Under the pieces are notes generated by a model. That model searched no databases, was not told where the DNA came from, and was given only the letters and a program-made list of their open reading frames with translations. 64,000 nucleotides of DNA from Pseudomonadota bacterium (GTDB taxonomy: Bacteria > Pseudomonadota > Gammaproteobacteria > Halothiobacillales > Halothiobacillaceae), in contig JAJYYE010000001.1 of assembly GCA_021801265.1 (NCBI GenBank), positions 496,001 to 560,000 on the forward strand. The letters run 5' to 3'. Shown piece after piece: positions 43,129 through 55,804 of the stretch (its first letter is position 1; each line of letters starts with the position of its first letter). Position numbers and translations under genes: made by a program.

Positions 43129-44109
43129 CTAAAAATCCAACGGGCTGACCACCCCGCGCCCGCCTTTATTCAGCACATGCGTATAAATCATCGTCGTTGC
43201 CACATCCTTATGCCCCAACAATTCCTGAATGGTGCGAATATCCTGTCCGCGCTCCAATAAATGCGTCGCAAACGAATGGCGCAAGGTGTGCGGCGTAGCC
43301 GGTTTCGCCAACCCCGCCGCCTGCACCGCCTTTTTCATCGCCCGCTGCAATAACTTCTCATCCACATGATGCCGCCGCTCAGCACCGCTACGCGGATCGA
43401 CCGAATAACTGCCCGCAGGGAAAATATATTGCCACCCCCATTCACTGGGGGCATGGGGATACTTCACCGCCAACGCATCGGGTAAATACACTGCGGCCAT
43501 CCCCGCACGCGCATCATCCTCAAACAGGGTGCGGCGTTTTTGCAGATGCGCCTGCAACGCGGGGACTACCGACTCCGGCAACATCGTCATCCGATCCTTC
43601 GTGCCCTTGCCCTCGCGAATCACAATCTCGCCGCGGCCGAAATCCACATCCTTCACCCGTAAACGCACACACTCCATCAGCCGCATCCCCGTACCGTACA
43701 GAAGTGTCGCCATCAAACCATATGTGCCGATCATCCGATCCAAAACAGCCCGTACCTCCTCCCGCGTCAACACCACCGGCAAACGCTGCGGTAACTTCGC
43801 CCGCGTCACGTTATCCAGCCACGGCAACTCAACCCCCAGCACCTCGCGATACAAAAACAAGAGTGCCGACAACGCCTGATTTTGCGTTGAGGCCGACACA
43901 TGCCCCACCACGGCCAAATGGGTTAAAAACGCCTCCACTTCCGGCGCACCCATATCACGTGGGTGTTTTTTATCGTGAAACAGGATGAATCGTTTAATCC
44001 ATTGAAGATATAGTGTTTCCGTGCGGATGCTGTAATGCTTCACCCGAATCAAATCGCGCACCTGATCGAGCAATTTCGGTGGCGGAGCAATCGGTGTGTT
44101 TGAATCCAT
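43129..44109 (-). CDS. intI: integron integrase IntI
   Basis: 326 residues from [10 protein letters not shown]; a longer frame adds 24 residues of unlikely sequence across the promoter. Tyrosine recombinase residues are all present: Arg in [10 protein letters not shown] (about 143), Lys in GKGTKDR (about 171), HTLRHS (about 274-279), His in LLGHKD (about 300) and Tyr in MIYTHV (about 309). The extra IntI helix [21 protein letters not shown] is also present, which separates integron integrases from XerC/D. It folds bottom-strand attC hairpins and inserts cassettes at attI. It appears intact and is transcribed away from the array. Confidence 0.97.
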
Positions 44110-44232
44110 GGTAAATCCCCGATACCTTAAATTTGCATCATTAAAAACAAATGGATAGGATAAGCTAATGTTTTTATACACCGAACAACCAAAAAAATAT
44201 ACACCCGACAGGGTGTATATTGCACGTTAGGT
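44110..44232. promoter_or_regulatory. attI region with intI promoter and cassette insertion point
   Basis: The insertion point is GTTAGGT at 44226-44232, recombination occurring after the G. Just upstream is a perfect 10-bp inverted repeat (ATATACACCC / GGGTGTATAT) around GACA at 44197-44220. The region must also hold the intI promoter (minus) and probably the cassette promoter Pc; a weak plus-strand candidate is TTGCAT at 44133 and TAGGAT at 44156 with 17 bp between. No CTGT-N8-ACAG LexA box was found. Confidence 0.75.
44197..44220. repeat. perfect 10-bp palindrome beside attI
   Basis: ATATACACCC and GGGTGTATAT are separated by GACA. It lies 5 bp before the ACGTTAGG core. It may be an integrase-binding site or an operator for intI. 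Confidence 0.85.
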
Positions 44233-44491: not shown

Positions 44492-44554
44492 ACCTAACCT
44501 GGCGTTCGAGCGGGACGCCGCAAAAGCGCGGCGCCCCTCAACTTTACGTTAGGG
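44492..44554 (+). other. attC site 1
   Basis: Left box ACCTAAC, hairpin core GACGCCGC-AAAA-GCGCGGCGCC, right box GTTAGGG. The left box complements the GTTAGGT at attI, confirming that it closes the ORF-less cassette 1. Confidence 0.93.
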
Positions 44555-44916: not shown

Positions 44917-44979
44917 CCCTAACCCTACGCTCAAGCGGGACTGCGCAAAAGCGCGCAGCCCCTTAGCTTCACGTTAGAG
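44917..44979 (+). other. attC site 2
   Basis: Left box CCCTAAC complements GTTAGGG at the beginning of cassette 2. Core GACTGCGC-AAAA-GCGCGCAGCC; right box GTTAGAG. Confidence 0.93.
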
Positions 44980-45527: not shown

Positions 45528-45586
45528 GGCTAACCCAGCGTTCAACACGGACTCGCTAACGCGAGCCGGTTAACTTTACGTTAGCC
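45528..45586 (+). other. attC site 4
   Basis: Left box GGCTAAC complements GTTAGCC at the beginning of cassette 4. The core differs from the others: GACTCGC-TAAC-GCGAGCC; right box GTTAGCC. Confidence 0.92.
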
Positions 45587-45633
45587 ATCCATCAACATTT
45601 GATCCTCGCACACAAAATTACATGATGTACTAG

Positions 45634-45662
45634 TTGAGTATTTGCGCTAAAATGCATACTAT
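45634..45662 (+). promoter_or_regulatory. promoter of the cassette methyltransferase gene
   Basis: TTGAGT and TACTAT with a 17-bp spacer. The -10 overlaps ACTATGAGTA (45658-45667), which is identical to one half of the C-box at 47379-47388, so the C protein may also act on this promoter. Confidence 0.6.
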
Positions 45663-45682
45663 GAGTATCGTTTTACGAGGCT

Positions 45683-46615
45683 ATGATGGAAAAATTTAAG
45701 AATAAAGTGTTATTGGGTGATTGCAGAAATGTCTTAAAAGAGCTGCCTGATAATGCTATTTCTGCATGCATTACAGATCCACCATATAACTATGAATTTA
45801 TTGGTCACAAATGGGATGACTCTGAAATTCAACGCAGAAAAGATCGCGTCAAAGACAGTAAAACGCTAGTTAAAAATATCCCCTATGGTAGTGGTTTAGC
45901 TGGAGGGGTTAGAAATGAACGTTGGTATAAGAAAAATAGAGACAATATTCTTGAGTATGAAGATTGGTGTTTAGAGTGGGCTACAGAATTATTTCGAGTA
46001 TGTAAGCCTGGAGCTTCCGTTCTTGTTTTTAATAGCACTAGAACTATTGCTCATGTTCAAGTGGCTTTAGAAAAAGCTGGATTTTATGCCAGAGACATAA
46101 TTGTGTATCGACGTTCAAGTGGAATACCCAAGGGTATCAATATGGAAAAAAATCTTGAGCAAAAAGGCTATGCGAATCCCGAAAATTGGGAAGGCTGGCA
46201 TAGCTGCTTAAGAAGTGAATGGGAGGCTATTTGCGTTGTGCAAAAACCACTTGTAAATAACTATACTCAAACTCTTCTTGAGTATGGAACTGGGCTCTTT
46301 TACGCAAAACAAGAAAATGGTGGATTCCAATCAAATATATTGGAAAACATTAAACGTGATAAAACTCCTGACTACAATATCCATTGCACAGTTAAGCCGT
46401 TAGAGCTTATGAAAAAACTGGTCGATATTTTCGTTCCACGAGTAGAAGGAACTATTGTGATTGATCCCTTTGCAGGATCAGGTACGACTTTAGTTGCAGC
46501 TAAACAAGCTGGGATTGATTATATCGGTATAGAAGTGGAGTCGTCCTATATCGAGATAATAGAAAAAAGACTTCAATCGATTAGCGAACAACAAGAAATG
46601 CTTTCGCTTTTCTAA
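45683..46615 (+). CDS. cassette 5: type II DNA methyltransferase (beta class)
   Basis: Up to 310 residues; ATG at 45683 directly followed by a second ATG. The catalytic motif TDPPYNYEF is at residues 31-39 and the SAM-binding motif IDPFAGSGTTLVAAKQAG is C-terminal, an order typical of beta-class amino-methyltransferases; DPPY favours N6-adenine. A C-terminal short helix follows. It converges with the restriction endonuclease gene and the two overlap by 35 bp at their 3' ends. It protects host DNA from the endonuclease of the same cassette. Confidence 0.9.
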   Translation: MMEKFKNKVLLGDCRNVLKELPDNAISACITDPPYNYEFIGHKWDDSEIQRRKDRVKDSKTLVKNIPYGSGLAGGVRNERWYKKNRDNILEYEDWCLEWATELFRVCKPGASVLVFNSTRTIAHVQVALEKAGFYARDIIVYRRSSGIPKGINMEKNLEQKGYANPENWEGWHSCLRSEWEAICVVQKPLVNNYTQTLLEYGTGLFYAKQENGGFQSNILENIKRDKTPDYNIHCTVKPLELMKKLVDIFVPRVEGTIVIDPFAGSGTTLVAAKQAGIDYIGIEVESSYIEIIEKRLQSISEQQEMLSLF

Positions 46616-47129
46616 TAAGGTAGTCCTCCATGTCAAATCCAGAAATGTCCCTAATGAAATCAAATGACTGTTTGCCAATGTATATTTTCCAAGTCCCACT
46701 TTGGCATGCTGTCATTGCAGCAGGTAGGTTATCTTCCCGAAGGAATAAAAAAACAGGTTCATATCCCCGCGACCGTAATAAAGGGCCATATGATTTAAAC
46801 TTTTTCAAAGTCCCAGAATCACCAGACCCAATTCGATATTTCGTGTCAATAGCGTAATTTTGAACAATAAGATCACATGGCTCATCACCGCCGATTCGCA
46901 AGGCCGGCTGGTATGTTGGTACTCTTTTACATGCTTCAATGACCAGCGATTCCCAGCACTTCCCTAGTTCTCGACCCCAATACTGGCGATTTTCGCGTTT
47001 AAGTAACGGGGAAATACCAAACGCTTCCATTAAAAGATCATGGTCATCATTCTCGTCTGAGTAAACCTTCTCGATAAATGATGTTTTATACCGCTCAAGT
47101 ACTGCGTCTAAATTTTGTTCAATTGACAC
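46581..47129 (-). CDS. cassette 5: type II restriction endonuclease, ApaLI-like
   Basis: 182 residues. A PD-(D/E)xK core is visible as Asp86 in EPCDLIVQNYAIDTKYR with D95-T-K97, and Glu60 in GKCWESLVIEA. The order D-L-I-x-N-x-A-I-D-x-K and the C-terminal GYEPVFLFLREDN...FDFIRDISGFD recall the ApaLI family (GTGCAC cutters), by memory of the family pattern. It follows the C regulator with an 11-bp overlap, the common C-R operon. The recognition sequence cannot be derived from the sequence alone. Confidence 0.8.
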   Translation of the reverse strand: MSIEQNLDAVLERYKTSFIEKVYSDENDDHDLLMEAFGISPLLKRENRQYWGRELGKCWESLVIEACKRVPTYQPALRIGGDEPCDLIVQNYAIDTKYRIGSGDSGTLKKFKSYGPLLRSRGYEPVFLFLREDNLPAAMTACQSGTWKIYIGKQSFDFIRDISGFDMEDYLIRKAKAFLVVR

Positions 47130-47355
47130 TAGATTTCTCCAAGAAAAATGAGGCGAGCGGTTGCTCTAATGCGTTTGCAATTTTTTCGGCATTTATAAGG
47201 GTTATATTTCGTTCGCCACGTTCAACCGAACCAATATATGTCCTGTGTAAGCCACAAAGATCAGCAAGCTCCTCTTGAGAGAGCCTTTTCAAGCTCCGAA
47301 AATGCCTTACTTTTTGACCGAAAGATTGTGTTATTGTCATAAGCTGATAATCCAT
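47119..47355 (-). CDS. cassette 5: restriction-modification controller (C) protein
   Basis: 73-78 residues; ATG at 47355 or 47340. It is a single XRE helix-turn-helix domain (LSQEELADLCGLHRTYIGSVERGERN) with the characteristic C-protein ending ANALEQPLASFF. It overlaps the endonuclease gene. C proteins delay endonuclease expression until DNA is methylated and then regulate their own promoter through C-boxes; a perfect C-box pair lies 6 bp upstream of the first ATG, so the mRNA may be leaderless. Confidence 0.9.
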   Translation of the reverse strand: MDYQLMTITQSFGQKVRHFRSLKRLSQEELADLCGLHRTYIGSVERGERNITLINAEKIANALEQPLASFFLEKSSVN

Positions 47356-47361
47356 AAATAC

Positions 47362-47387
47362 ACTCTATAAGTCGACAGACTATGAGT
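47362..47387 (-). promoter_or_regulatory. C-box operator of the restriction-modification system
   Basis: Read on the minus strand it is ACTCATAGTC-TGTC-GACTTATAGAGT, matching the published C-box layout (ACTYATAGTC, TG-rich spacer, GACTATRAGT). It is squeezed between the C gene and the attC left box at 47395, so the whole regulatory circuit is inside the cassette. Confidence 0.88.
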
Positions 47388-47394
47388 AGCGAAT

Positions 47395-47459
47395 GGCTAA
47401 CCCGGCGTTCGAGCGGGACTCGCCCAGAAGCGGGCGAGCCCCTCAACTTTACGTTATGC
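47395..47459 (+). other. attC site 5
   Basis: Left box GGCTAAC complements GTTAGCC at 45580, proving that methyltransferase, endonuclease and C gene form a single 1.8-kb cassette. Core GACTCGCCC-AGAA-GCGGGCGAGCC; right box GTTATGC. Confidence 0.93.
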
Positions 47460-47474
47460 CGCTCATACCTAGCC

Positions 47475-48386
47475 ATGGCTACTATTAGACAGTACTTTGA
47501 AACTGACTTCGACTATTGCCTCCGGGTAAAGATTAAGTACGACCTTGGTGGCGATTCATATGAAGGTGCTGTCCTATACGACGCCAGCGCGAAATCGGCC
47601 TTTGTCGCGTTCTACTTTCCTGGCACCGCGCATACCTATGAAGGCTTTCTGAGCTTTCTCAGGTCGCTCAACTACGGGGAGACCGGCCTCAATCTCAATG
47701 GAGGAATAGTTCTCCCTAGCGCCAAACAATTCCCTGGGCAACTGCGAGTGGAAAACTCCAATCCATTCGTAATTCATTATCAGCTGTTTGGCGACCCGTC
47801 TTGGAGAGACCTCTTCTCAATACACACCAGTCGCCGCGTATTTTTCTACTCCGAGACCAGTTTGTCCCCTTCTGATATTGAGAGGCTTCAAGTCGAGGCC
47901 AACACAATGGGCCATGACTTACAGTTCCGCTCAGATGGGTACGCTTTCAGCCGCAGTCAGTTTGAGAAGCCACAAGCCTTCATCAGCCACGACTCGAAGG
48001 ACAAAGAGTCGATTGCAAGGCCAATAGCCTTAAACCTGCAAAGAAAGTTGTGTCCGGTTTGGTACGATGAGTTTTCCTTGAAGCTCGGTGACAACTTGCG
48101 GCAAAGCATTGAAAAGGGCTTGAAGGAGTGCAGTAAGTGCGTTCTTATCCTGAGCCCAAACTTCTTCGCCAATAGCGGGTGGGGAAAGAAGGAGTTCGAA
48201 TCCATATTCACTCGCGAAATACTTGAAGACGCACGGCTCGTATTGCCAATTTGGTGTGGCGTCACAAAGCATGAGGTGTACGAGTACAGCCCCAGCCTAT
48301 TAAATGTGAAAGGCGTTGACTGGAATGCCCTCGGAGAGGACGAAGTGTGCAGACAAATCTATCTTGCCGTTACCACCGCAGCATAA
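47475..48386 (+). CDS. cassette 6: TIR-domain protein with N-terminal unknown domain
   Basis: 303 residues from MATIRQYFET; the longer upstream frame is translated attC and is rejected. Residues 1 to about 165 form a domain I do not recognise. The C-terminal TIR domain (about 167-303) reads QAFISHDSKDKESIARPIAL, VWYDEFSLKLGDNLRQSI, VLILSPNFFANSGWGKKEF and VLPIWCGVTKHEV, close to bacterial TIR effectors with Glu in the DEFSLKLG loop. Such domains often cleave NAD in anti-phage systems. It stands alone as a cassette, with its stop inside the next attC. Confidence 0.85.
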   Translation: MATIRQYFETDFDYCLRVKIKYDLGGDSYEGAVLYDASAKSAFVAFYFPGTAHTYEGFLSFLRSLNYGETGLNLNGGIVLPSAKQFPGQLRVENSNPFVIHYQLFGDPSWRDLFSIHTSRRVFFYSETSLSPSDIERLQVEANTMGHDLQFRSDGYAFSRSQFEKPQAFISHDSKDKESIARPIALNLQRKLCPVWYDEFSLKLGDNLRQSIEKGLKECSKCVLILSPNFFANSGWGKKEFESIFTREILEDARLVLPIWCGVTKHEVYEYSPSLLNVKGVDWNALGEDEVCRQIYLAVTTAA

Positions 48387-50670: not shown

Positions 50671-51129
50671 ATGCCTGACGTTTTTATTAGCTACTCAGCC
50701 AAAGATGAAAATCTCGCGCAGTTTGTGCGCAGCCATCTTGTCGCACAGGAGCTGGATGTATTTCTTGCATCCATCAGCCTTAACACTGGAGAGCACTGGA
50801 CACCCCAGATAATCGAATCTCTGAGAGCATCGGAATGGGTGTTTCTTCTCGCAAGCAAGAACGCTCTCGCTTCCCCGAACGTTCAGCAAGAAATTGGAGG
50901 CGCGATCTTCGGGAAAAAGAAACTTGTTCCAATCATGTGGGATGTCCAGCCAAGTGATCTACCTCGATGGGTTGGCGACTATCAGGGTCTCGTACTTACG
51001 GGCGCAACCATGGAGAATATCAACATTCAGGTTTCTCAGTTGGCTGCAAATGTGAAGGCAAGCAAAGTTAAGGGGCAGCTTGTTGCGGGCGCTGTTTTCG
51101 CCGGGCTGCTCTTCCTTCTAGCGAAATGA
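50671..51129 (+). CDS. cassette 11: TIR-domain protein with C-terminal membrane helix
   Basis: 152 residues with AGAGG upstream. TIR domain at about 1-125: PDVFISYSAKDENLAQFVRS, LDVFLASISLNTGEHW, SEWVFLLASKNALASPNVQQEIGGA and VPIMWDVQPSDLP. A hydrophobic tail (LVAGAVFAGLLFLLAK) anchors it in the membrane. It lacks a separate sensor domain, so it may work with another protein or oligomerise at the membrane. The glutamate usually required for NAD cleavage is not obvious in the FLASISLNTGEHW loop, so it could bind rather than cleave. Confidence 0.82.
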   Translation: MPDVFISYSAKDENLAQFVRSHLVAQELDVFLASISLNTGEHWTPQIIESLRASEWVFLLASKNALASPNVQQEIGGAIFGKKKLVPIMWDVQPSDLPRWVGDYQGLVLTGATMENINIQVSQLAANVKASKVKGQLVAGAVFAGLLFLLAK

Positions 51130-52089: not shown

Positions 52090-53526
52090 ATGACCGCTCC
52101 AAAAGTATTTATTTCATATAGCTGGTCTGCTTCCGAGCACGAGCAGTGGGTTGTGGACTTGGCTACTGGACTTCGCGAATCTGGCGTCGACGTGATTCTG
52201 GACAAATGGGATCTTAAAGAAGGTCACGATGCGGTTGCGTTCATGGAACAGATGGTCACCAACAAAGACATTACAAAAGTTGCAATCATCTGTGACGAGA
52301 CTTATGCCGCGAAAGCAGATGGCCGAGCTGGAGGCGTAGGCACAGAAACCCAGATCATTTCAAAAGAGGTTTATGAAAACCAAGCCCAAGAGAAATTTGT
52401 AGCGATAGTTTCTGAGAAGGATGGCAACGGAAAATCATACCTTCCGACCTATTACAAATCTCGGATTTATATTGACCTGAGTGAAGCCGACAAGTACTCA
52501 GAAAACTTTGAGAAGCTCTTACGATGGATTTTTGATAAGCCACTTTACGTCAAACCAGAACTCGGTAACAAACCATCATTCCTTGAAGAAGGAGAGCACA
52601 TATCACTTGGTACTACGGCGACATTCAAGCGCTGTGTTGAAGCTTTAAAGAACAACAAGCCATATGCTGCGGGCGCTTACGACGAGTACTGTAATACGTT
52701 TACTTTGAATCTGGAGCGTTTCAGGCTATCGAAACCTGACGGTGAATTTGACGACGCAGTAATCAGGAGTATTGAAGAGTTTCTGCCATTTCGTAATGAA
52801 GCGATACAGCTCTTCACCACAATTGCTCAATACTCCCCAACAACTGAGTTTGTGCAGAGGACTCATCGCTTTTTCGAAAGCCTTATCCCATACATGCACC
52901 GGCCAAGCAACATTAACCAGTGCAACGAATGGGACTTTGATAACTTCAAGTTCTTGGTCCACGAGCTGTTCTTGTATGCGTTGGCCGTGTTCATTAAGCA
53001 TGACCGATTGGCCCAAGCAAAATATCTCCTAGAACAACACTATTACCTTCCGGGCAACTCTGATCATGGGCGAAATATCATGGTCAGCTATGTTGTACTC
53101 AGGGAGTACCTACGCTCCCTAGAGCACCGTAACAAGCGACTGGGTCTTCGCAGGCTGTCACTTAGGGCGGACCTATTGAAAGAGCGATGCAACGGTACTG
53201 GAATCGAATTTCGGTACTTAATGCAGGCAGACTTTATCGCCTTCATGCGAGCCGAAGTGGAAGCCGAGAACGACTACAAGAAGTGGTGGCCAGAAACATT
53301 GCTTTGGCTTGGGCATTTCAATGGCGCTTTCGAGGTGTTCGCACGGTCAGTTTCAATGGCTTATTTCAACAATGCGAAAGGCCTAATCGCAATTGAATCT
53401 GCGAAAGACCTAGAGCCTTTGCTCATGAGCTACCAAGATGGCACGCGACAACTTCCAAGGTGGGAGTTCGAAGGTTTTAGTCCTTCTGTACTCCTCGGAT
53501 ATGAGCAGTTGGCTACGCGACCATAA
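52090..53526 (+). CDS. cassette 14: SEFIR/TIR-like protein with large C-terminal domain
   Basis: 478 residues. The N-terminal SEFIR-type domain (about 1-155) reads KVFISYSWSASEHEQWVVDLATGL, VDVILDKWDLKEGHDAVAFME and KADGRAGGVGTETQII. The remaining 320 residues are helical and of unknown family, possibly a sensor or effector platform. Proteins with an N-terminal SEFIR domain and a helical C-terminal part are candidates for abortive-infection defence. It is the longest single gene of the array; its attC is unusually long. Confidence 0.82.
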   Translation: MTAPKVFISYSWSASEHEQWVVDLATGLRESGVDVILDKWDLKEGHDAVAFMEQMVTNKDITKVAIICDETYAAKADGRAGGVGTETQIISKEVYENQAQEKFVAIVSEKDGNGKSYLPTYYKSRIYIDLSEADKYSENFEKLLRWIFDKPLYVKPELGNKPSFLEEGEHISLGTTATFKRCVEALKNNKPYAAGAYDEYCNTFTLNLERFRLSKPDGEFDDAVIRSIEEFLPFRNEAIQLFTTIAQYSPTTEFVQRTHRFFESLIPYMHRPSNINQCNEWDFDNFKFLVHELFLYALAVFIKHDRLAQAKYLLEQHYYLPGNSDHGRNIMVSYVVLREYLRSLEHRNKRLGLRRLSLRADLLKERCNGTGIEFRYLMQADFIAFMRAEVEAENDYKKWWPETLLWLGHFNGAFEVFARSVSMAYFNNAKGLIAIESAKDLEPLLMSYQDGTRQLPRWEFEGFSPSVLLGYEQLATRP

Positions 53527-55215: not shown

Positions 55216-55497
55216 ATGATTCAAACATTCGCCAACACTGAAACCGAAGGCTTTTTCGTTACAGGTAAATCGCGTCGTTTACCTTCGGAAATTCTCAAGC
55301 GTGCGGCCATGCGTCTCAATCAGTTGCATGCCGCTACAGAGTTGAATGATCTACGTTTGCCACCATCTAATTACTTGGAGGCTCTTTCAGGTAATCGCGT
55401 TGGTCAATGGAGTATACGTATAAACCAACAGTGGCGTGTCTGTTTCAAGTTTGAAAATGGTGACGCATTTAATGTCGAAATAGTGGATTACCACTAG
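55216..55497 (+). CDS. higB: cassette 18: HigB/RelE family toxin
   Basis: 93 residues. The family pattern FFVTGKSRRLPSEILKRAAMRLNQL, LRLPPSNYLEALSGNRVGQWSIRINQQWRVCF and VEIVDYH is complete, with the basic residues and C-terminal His used for ribosome-dependent mRNA cleavage. Toxin precedes antitoxin, the HigBA order, with 10 bp between them. The unit has its own operator, as usual for toxin-antitoxin cassettes, which stabilise arrays. Confidence 0.92.
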   Translation: MIQTFANTETEGFFVTGKSRRLPSEILKRAAMRLNQLHAATELNDLRLPPSNYLEALSGNRVGQWSIRINQQWRVCFKFENGDAFNVEIVDYH

Positions 55498-55507
55498 GAG
55501 GAATAAC

Positions 55508-55804
55508 ATGATCTACAATGGTTTAACACCTATCCATCCCGGCGAGTACCTCGCCGAGCTCCTTGAAGAGCTTCATATCTCTCAAGCGTTGTTCGCTCGT
55601 ACCATTGGTGTGTCGCCCATGCGCATTTCCCATATCGTTAAAGGCAAGCGCCCTGTTACGGCTGAACTAGCATTGCTGTTTGCAAAAGCTTTTGAGCAAA
55701 CTCCACAGTATTGGCTCAATTTGCAAGCCAGCTATGATCTAAAAACTGCTGAGAAAAGCATCGCCAATCGTCTCTTCTCCATTCATAGCTTGGCCCATGC
55801 TTAA
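55508..55804 (+). CDS. higA: cassette 18: HigA family antitoxin
   Basis: 98 residues. IHPGEYLAELLEELHISQALFARTIGVSPMRISHIVKGKRPVT is the XRE-type HigA/VapI helix-turn-helix, and TPQYWLNLQASYDL follows. It neutralises HigB and binds the operator upstream. Its TAA stop is followed within 6 bp by the next cassette's GTTAGGC box without a complete attC. Confidence 0.92.
   Translation: MIYNGLTPIHPGEYLAELLEELHISQALFARTIGVSPMRISHIVKGKRPVTAELALLFAKAFEQTPQYWLNLQASYDLKTAEKSIANRLFSIHSLAHA

Follow-up and report, generated by a model that had tools for sequence, protein, structure and literature searches.

The usual picture of an integron cassette is that of a short element without a promoter. The locus analysed here lies within a stretch of 64,000 nucleotides (the window) from a genome of 2.66 Mb in 12 contigs, and it raises the question whether an entire type II restriction-modification (R-M) system, i.e. 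a methyltransferase (M), an endonuclease (R) and the associated controller protein (C), can be carried by one such cassette. The preliminary description of the window had claimed precisely this. Because the gene families, the conservation of the neighbourhood, the operators and the attC sites agree on the point, the reading of a type II R-M system that is complete, C-controlled and enclosed in a single integron cassette is supported at the level of sequence. In our view it is very probable that the cassette constitutes a complete, self-regulated system that can be moved as one piece by integron recombination.

The borders of the cassette are defined by the following features:

43132-44181, minus strand: full-length integron integrase IntI (TIGR02249 at E 5.7e-146, covering positions 1-313 of the 315 in the profile)

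45528-45586, plus strand: attC of the preceding cassette (attC model 61.5 bits, E 3.1e-13; folding scan)

45581-47453, plus strand: R-M cassette between two predicted crossover points (G^TT), with an attC on either side and a similar 5' edge in two copies from other genomes (loci L002 and L004, see below)

47395-47459, plus strand: 65-bp attC belonging to the R-M cassette, at a distance of 6 bp from the operator OL (attC model 73.6 bits, E 2e-16)

A cassette array, i.e. a chromosomal integron, extends rightward from IntI, and its attC sites all have the same orientation according to a covariance model. This model was trained on 13 array sites, both border attCs of the R-M cassette included, and it recovered sites at 44917, 49209, 51628 and 55107 on which it had not been trained. 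The R-M unit is preceded by the attCs at 44492, 44917, 45250 and 45528, which makes it the fifth cassette when attCs are counted (attI was read by eye). Both boxes that had been proposed to bound it lie inside attCs matched by the covariance model: GTTAGCC (45580-45586) is the last box of the attC at 45528-45586 and forms the 5' border of the cassette, and GGCTAAC (at 47395) is the first box of its own attC. The unit thus carries a 3' attC and follows another attC that points the same way, within the array next to intI. Crossover takes place within G^TTRRRY, which implies that the mobile unit would extend from about 45581 to 47453. The bottom strand of the R-M attC folds at -14.9 kcal/mol (z -1.94), a modest advantage over shuffled sequence, as 8 of 200 shuffles fold equally well.

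Three genes are enclosed:

45683-46615, plus strand: M, DNA methyltransferase of 310 aa with DPPY followed by FxGxG (PF01555, 3e-35; PADLOC MTase_II, 5.3e-46)

46581-47129, minus strand: R, predicted restriction endonuclease of 182 aa with a GTG start (residue conservation, fold, PADLOC REase_II 4.6e-5)

47119-47340, minus strand: C, controller protein of 73 aa from the ATG at 47340 (C.BclI, 1.5e-19; C.AhdI, 7e-15; PADLOC Control_protein, 7.8e-23; start aligned in relatives)

All three are open frames, and they bear out the convergent arrangement described earlier, with C and R running together against M, as well as the tail-to-tail overlap of 35 bp between M and R; R furthermore overlaps the tail of C by 11 bp. 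The methyltransferase gene adjacent to R is of a known family and represents the sole PF01555 match in the genome. Upstream of R lies C, a member of the HTH controller family whose nearest relative is C.BclI, followed by C.AhdI. The ATG at 47340 is more likely to be its start than 47355, because the starts of its relatives align there.

The identity of R was approached via conserved residues and predicted structure. Its PADLOC match is weak; it has no Pfam or NCBIfam match at E 0.01 and no PDB sequence match at E 1. In an alignment of 54 sequences (the window and 53 of 62 loci, leaving aside L066, two loci on plasmids and six for which there is a stop or the match is short) the residues E54, D86, D95 and K97 are invariant, which we read as a PD-(D/E)xK pattern. 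The AlphaFold model (pLDDT 85.6) finds its best fold match in EcoO109I, at a moderate level (Z 9.7, 161 residues aligned, rmsd 4.0, 9% identity), and Foldseek is led by PspGI (probability 0.99, E 1.6e-3, the best value) and Ecl18kI, with none below E 0.001. A restriction-enzyme active site (D86, D95-x-K97) and a corresponding predicted fold are hence found with moderate scores. The earlier label 'ApaLI-like' found no support in these searches, which gave no family match for R at the above threshold and EcoO109I as its best fold match. M.EcoO109I is a C5 enzyme, whereas the M of the window belongs to PF01555. EcoO109I likewise has an associated C protein, which nevertheless has a C-box of a class other than that of the window (both according to passages of PMC4824078).

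A recognition site could not be derived from palindrome counts in the flanks of the 62 loci (508,710 bases, order-2 model): the depletion was broad, extending to GGGCCC, RGGNCCY, GGWCC and many more, and indicated no single site in the absence of control genomes. R has no match in phage records at E 0.01; three viral contigs carry relatives.

The regulatory elements that would connect these genes are the following:

45634-45662, plus strand: inferred M promoter, -35 TTGAGT (45634-45639), 17 bp, -10 TACTAT (45657-45662) (sequence reading; alignment with close relatives)

45657-45667, plus strand: OM, single putative C operator TACTATGAGTA over the -10 of M (8 of 8 operator positions)

47347-47375, minus strand: inferred weak C-R promoter, -35 TCGACT (47375-47370), 17 bp, -10 GATTAT (47352-47347) (sequence and spacing)

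47363-47388, minus strand: C-box, consisting of OL TACTCATAGTC (47388-47378), TGTC and OR GACTTATAGAG (47373-47363) (comparison with relatives; form of the class)

The C-box scores 14 of 16 against GACTnnnAGTC-N4-GACTnnnAGTC, a score matched by none of 200 shuffles of the upstream stretch. A looser pattern has two matches in the window, which are one site read on both strands; as 5 of 100 shuffles do equally well, that pattern is not rare enough by itself. The known class of C-boxes is described in parts of PMC4824078 as two copies of GACT-tat-AGTC around a GT-centred spacer, and judged by its sequence the C-box of the window is a member of this PvuII/Esp1396I class. Its location between C and the attC is as described before, the distance to the recombination box being 6 bp with an 11-bp operator (47378-47388) rather than the 8 bp given earlier. 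When at most one mismatch is allowed, TACTATGAGTA has two matches in the 64-kb window, one per promoter, against an expectation of 0.12, and none of 100 shuffles contains two. Both predicted promoters are weak by consensus, and neither was listed by a generic promoter scan, which yielded 2 promoter-like sites, i.e. fewer than the shuffles (mean 5.2). Transcription from the C-R promoter would start near 47340, on the A of the ATG, and the C mRNA would then be leaderless, which is common in these C operons according to the portions of PMC4824078 consulted here.

The organization resembles that of Esp1396I, in which C operators are located upstream of both C-R and M, three in all (PMC3758141 and PMC4824078, in the passages available). 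The window likewise has three putative operators, among them a separate predicted one at the M promoter (45657-45667), and by its sequence the cassette carries an Esp1396I-like circuit. It differs in that its C is closest to C.BclI, its R has no match among PDB sequences and the system is located in an integron cassette. By analogy with the PvuII/AhdI/Esp1396I class we infer C binding, activation, repression and delay as follows. On arrival in a cell, M would be expressed immediately, having a promoter of its own, whereas the weak promoter of C and R would depend on C. Accumulating C would bind OL and activate the C-R promoter, such that endonuclease would appear only once the host DNA has been methylated. 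At high levels of C the weak OR would also be occupied, which would limit C-R, and C on the single operator over the -10 of M would lower M. Since M is transcribed in the direction of the array, read-through from upstream can add only M transcript or antisense RNA to C-R. The cassette appears to pack three genes, two inferred promoters and three putative operators in 1.87 kb; with promoters and operators of its own it could defend the cell from any position in the array and establish itself safely in a new host.

XbaI and other R-M cases from super-integrons are known. In the parts of the literature available to us, PMC3874152 notes integron-borne R-M genes, PMC12409362, on the basis of Darracq et al., counts size-reduced type II systems among the defence genes of integrons, and PMC12444791 mentions R-M in Xanthomonas arrays. 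Among the matches listed in the open-access literature, in so far as their text was available, we saw no C-regulated R-M system in an integron. Type II R-M in integrons is thus already known, and it is the C-controlled member that is new.

A genome contig search recovered relatives of R at 57 loci from many phyla. Within the fetched DNA, M is present at 59 of 63 R loci (window included), in convergent orientation at 50 and on the same strand at 9. Of the 50 convergent pairs 43 have overlapping tails, and in 23 the overlap measures 35 or 38 bp. (L066 duplicates L039; it was counted among the 63 loci, the 50 convergent pairs, in the tree and in the operator scoring.) The operators follow the presence of C: a C-box of at least 14/16 is found at 20 of the 27 loci with an adjacent C versus 0 of the 32 scored without, and a perfect M operator at 15 of 27 (window included; 15-28 bp upstream of the M start) versus 2 of 32. 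One of these two exceptions, L052, does carry C and a C-box and was misfiled as C-less because its R match is partial; the other, L064, is on a contig that begins at R and belongs, with a few others, to the loci that have no upstream DNA. As C was sought with the C of the window only, some of the 32 C-less loci may hold a divergent C. Among the 27 loci with C, 12 are without a perfect M operator and 7 without a strong C-box; in 20 of the 27 the C-box ends 22-25 bp upstream of the C start.

A close counterpart is the plasmid-borne system of Shewanella sp. FDAARGOS_354 (WP_088587036, WP_088587037), which has the same C-R-M order, 80-81% identity, the 35-bp overlap, a C-box of 16/16 and an M operator of 8/8; it differs in being on a plasmid, and no attC was found in the 12.5 kb fetched.

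The comparison also bears on whether the system is alive. The R frame is interrupted by a stop codon in L014, L023, L043 and L058, and restriction may have been lost in some hosts. Together with the presumption that many V. cholerae integron cassettes are little expressed (stated in parts of PMC12409362), this gives some ground to suppose that the window holds a decayed or restriction-negative system, with a working M and a silent or dead R and C retained by the array. We consider that very unlikely: M, R and C of the window are open, R retains the residues that are invariant in 54 sequences, and C-box, M operator and 35-bp overlap have been kept in many relatives.

A complete system being the preferred reading, its mobility can be judged from its distribution. 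That the R-M unit would be mobile as one piece had been proposed earlier, and comparison speaks for it: the unit is located between attCs in L002 (Methylobacter), L004 (Methyloglobulus) and L019 (an Azonexus record), and beside one attC, after which the contig ends, in L013 (a Burkholderiaceae record). The array of L002 is adjoined by a gene for a tyrosine integrase, whose Pfam domains are those of the window's IntI. Over 1833 bp the window and L002 share 88.9% DNA identity; this aligned stretch ends 2 bp before the attC on the C side and enters the preceding attC by about 20 bp on the M side. These four loci are the only ones with an attC model match at E 0.001 or better among the 59 scanned (L002-L060; L065 and L066 were left out, and L064 was included only in a later scan). 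Such a low number is what could be expected if the R-M genes of the window were ordinary chromosomal genes with attC-like edges that arose by chance, and no cassette. Nevertheless, that explanation is extremely unlikely, as either border has an attC match and the unit is part of an array adjoining a full-length IntI, as both borders are again attCs in L002, L004 and L019, and as R was not found in any of the 9 same-genus genomes searched, 5 of which have a full-length integron integrase. R was likewise not found in the 17 other same-family genomes searched. In the search of 96 genomes and that of 369 genomes of the class (window's genome included in each), two other genomes only gave R matches, weak and partial (E 5e-4 to 6e-4). 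L018, where a GCCTAAC box lies at a distance of 7 bp from the C-box, was considered as a further cassette and rejected, since no attC model match was found beside R, even with filters off.

A tree was built from R and M for 52 of the 59 loci that have both genes (the window among them); rows with stops or short matches were omitted. It groups the window, L002, L003, L004 and L064 as clade A (UFboot 100), and L019, L013 and L018 as clade B (100). Clade A joins L005, for which no attC was found, at 97. As the attC-bearing copies are split over both clades and have relatives with no attC match, cassette status was gained at least twice or lost repeatedly. The nearest relative of L002 is L003 (3478-7847, Methylobacter tundripaludum OWC-G53F), where the R-M unit is flanked on one side by a gene weakly matching an IS200-like element and on the other by one for alcohol dehydrogenase; no attC was found in its 10.5-kb locus, and the same genome has 17 attC model matches elsewhere.

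There is as yet no settled account of how a cassette acquires its attC, and L002 and L004 are informative in this respect: the sequence ATCCAT(T/C)AA(C/T)ATT directly follows the attC box in the window, L002 and L004, and because of these near-identical letters (the argument rests mainly on the edge itself) the three are probably one cassette, with three kinds of attC. The attCs measure 65 bp in the window, 90 bp in L002 and 124 bp in L004, and are alike at only 0.40-0.61 among each other. The R-M attC of the window has an identity of 0.85-0.86 to its closest matches within the home array, versus 0.52 to that of L002 and 0.40 to that of L004; the R-M attC of L004 shows 0.88-0.89 to two neighbours in its own array, and that of L002 shows 0.91 to an own-array neighbour and 0.92 to another attC of L004. 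The attCs within a chromosomal integron resemble each other, according to sections of PMC8352920. Taken together, the identities suggest that the attC of the R-M cassette has been exchanged within clade A. That every copy of the cassette bears an attC of its own array holds for clade A only: it fails for L019 and L013, where the closest counterparts of the R-M attC are attCs of the window (0.81 and 0.65) instead of its own neighbours. For the 3' form seen in the window, the simplest route that we infer is a deletion that began immediately beyond OL and extended into a downstream attC.

Alternatively, the copies in the window, L002 and L004 could have originated as separate cassette births at one spot, without any replacement of attC. 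The attC and the spacer on the C side indeed differ in length and sequence, L003, the nearest relative of L002, has no attC within its 10.5-kb locus, and alignment of the upstream edges discriminates poorly: all three pairs of the window, L002 and L004 beat 1000 of 1000 shuffles, but so do window-L003 and L004-L064, in which no attC was found, because the tested stretch reaches towards the M promoter. We nevertheless regard separate births as unlikely, given that the conserved letters abut the attC box in all three copies, that three of three pairs pass the shuffle test and that the spacers of L002 and L004 align (a fraction of 0.003 of 2000 shuffles reaches the score). Replacement of the attC of one cassette is therefore the reading that we prefer.

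OL and the attC box are separated by 6 bp in the window and by 7 bp in L019 and L013. Because of this proximity one could imagine that C bound to OL hinders attC folding or integrase binding, such that a cassette expressing C would be locked in the array and only a low-C cassette would leave; the timing regulator would then double as an excision switch. With gaps of 42 bp in L002 and 45 bp in L004 arguing against it, this idea is highly doubtful.

Several other elements of the genome deserve mention. Searched with Rfam at gathering scores, the window gave no match. Far from the array there are single attC-like sites at C9:148291-149024, C8:680207, C8:682324, C6:60092 and C12:40456; the one on contig C9 is near an open fragment of 45 codons that matches the C-terminus of integron integrases, and the two are perhaps a decayed second integron. 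A HigB-like toxin (8.3e-20) and an HTH antitoxin (2e-10) form a pair at 55216-55804. The cassette next to the R-M unit (47475-48386) encodes a TIR-domain protein (TIR_2, 1.5e-16; PADLOC PDC-S66, 6.8e-37, and ThsB, 9e-23), and the array further contains a TIR_2 domain protein of 152 aa (50671-51129; 1.8e-16) and a SEFIR protein (52090-53526; 1.1e-17; PADLOC bSEFIR, 7e-125). The R-M cassette and these three TIR/SEFIR cassettes possibly represent four defence cassettes within about 8 kb.
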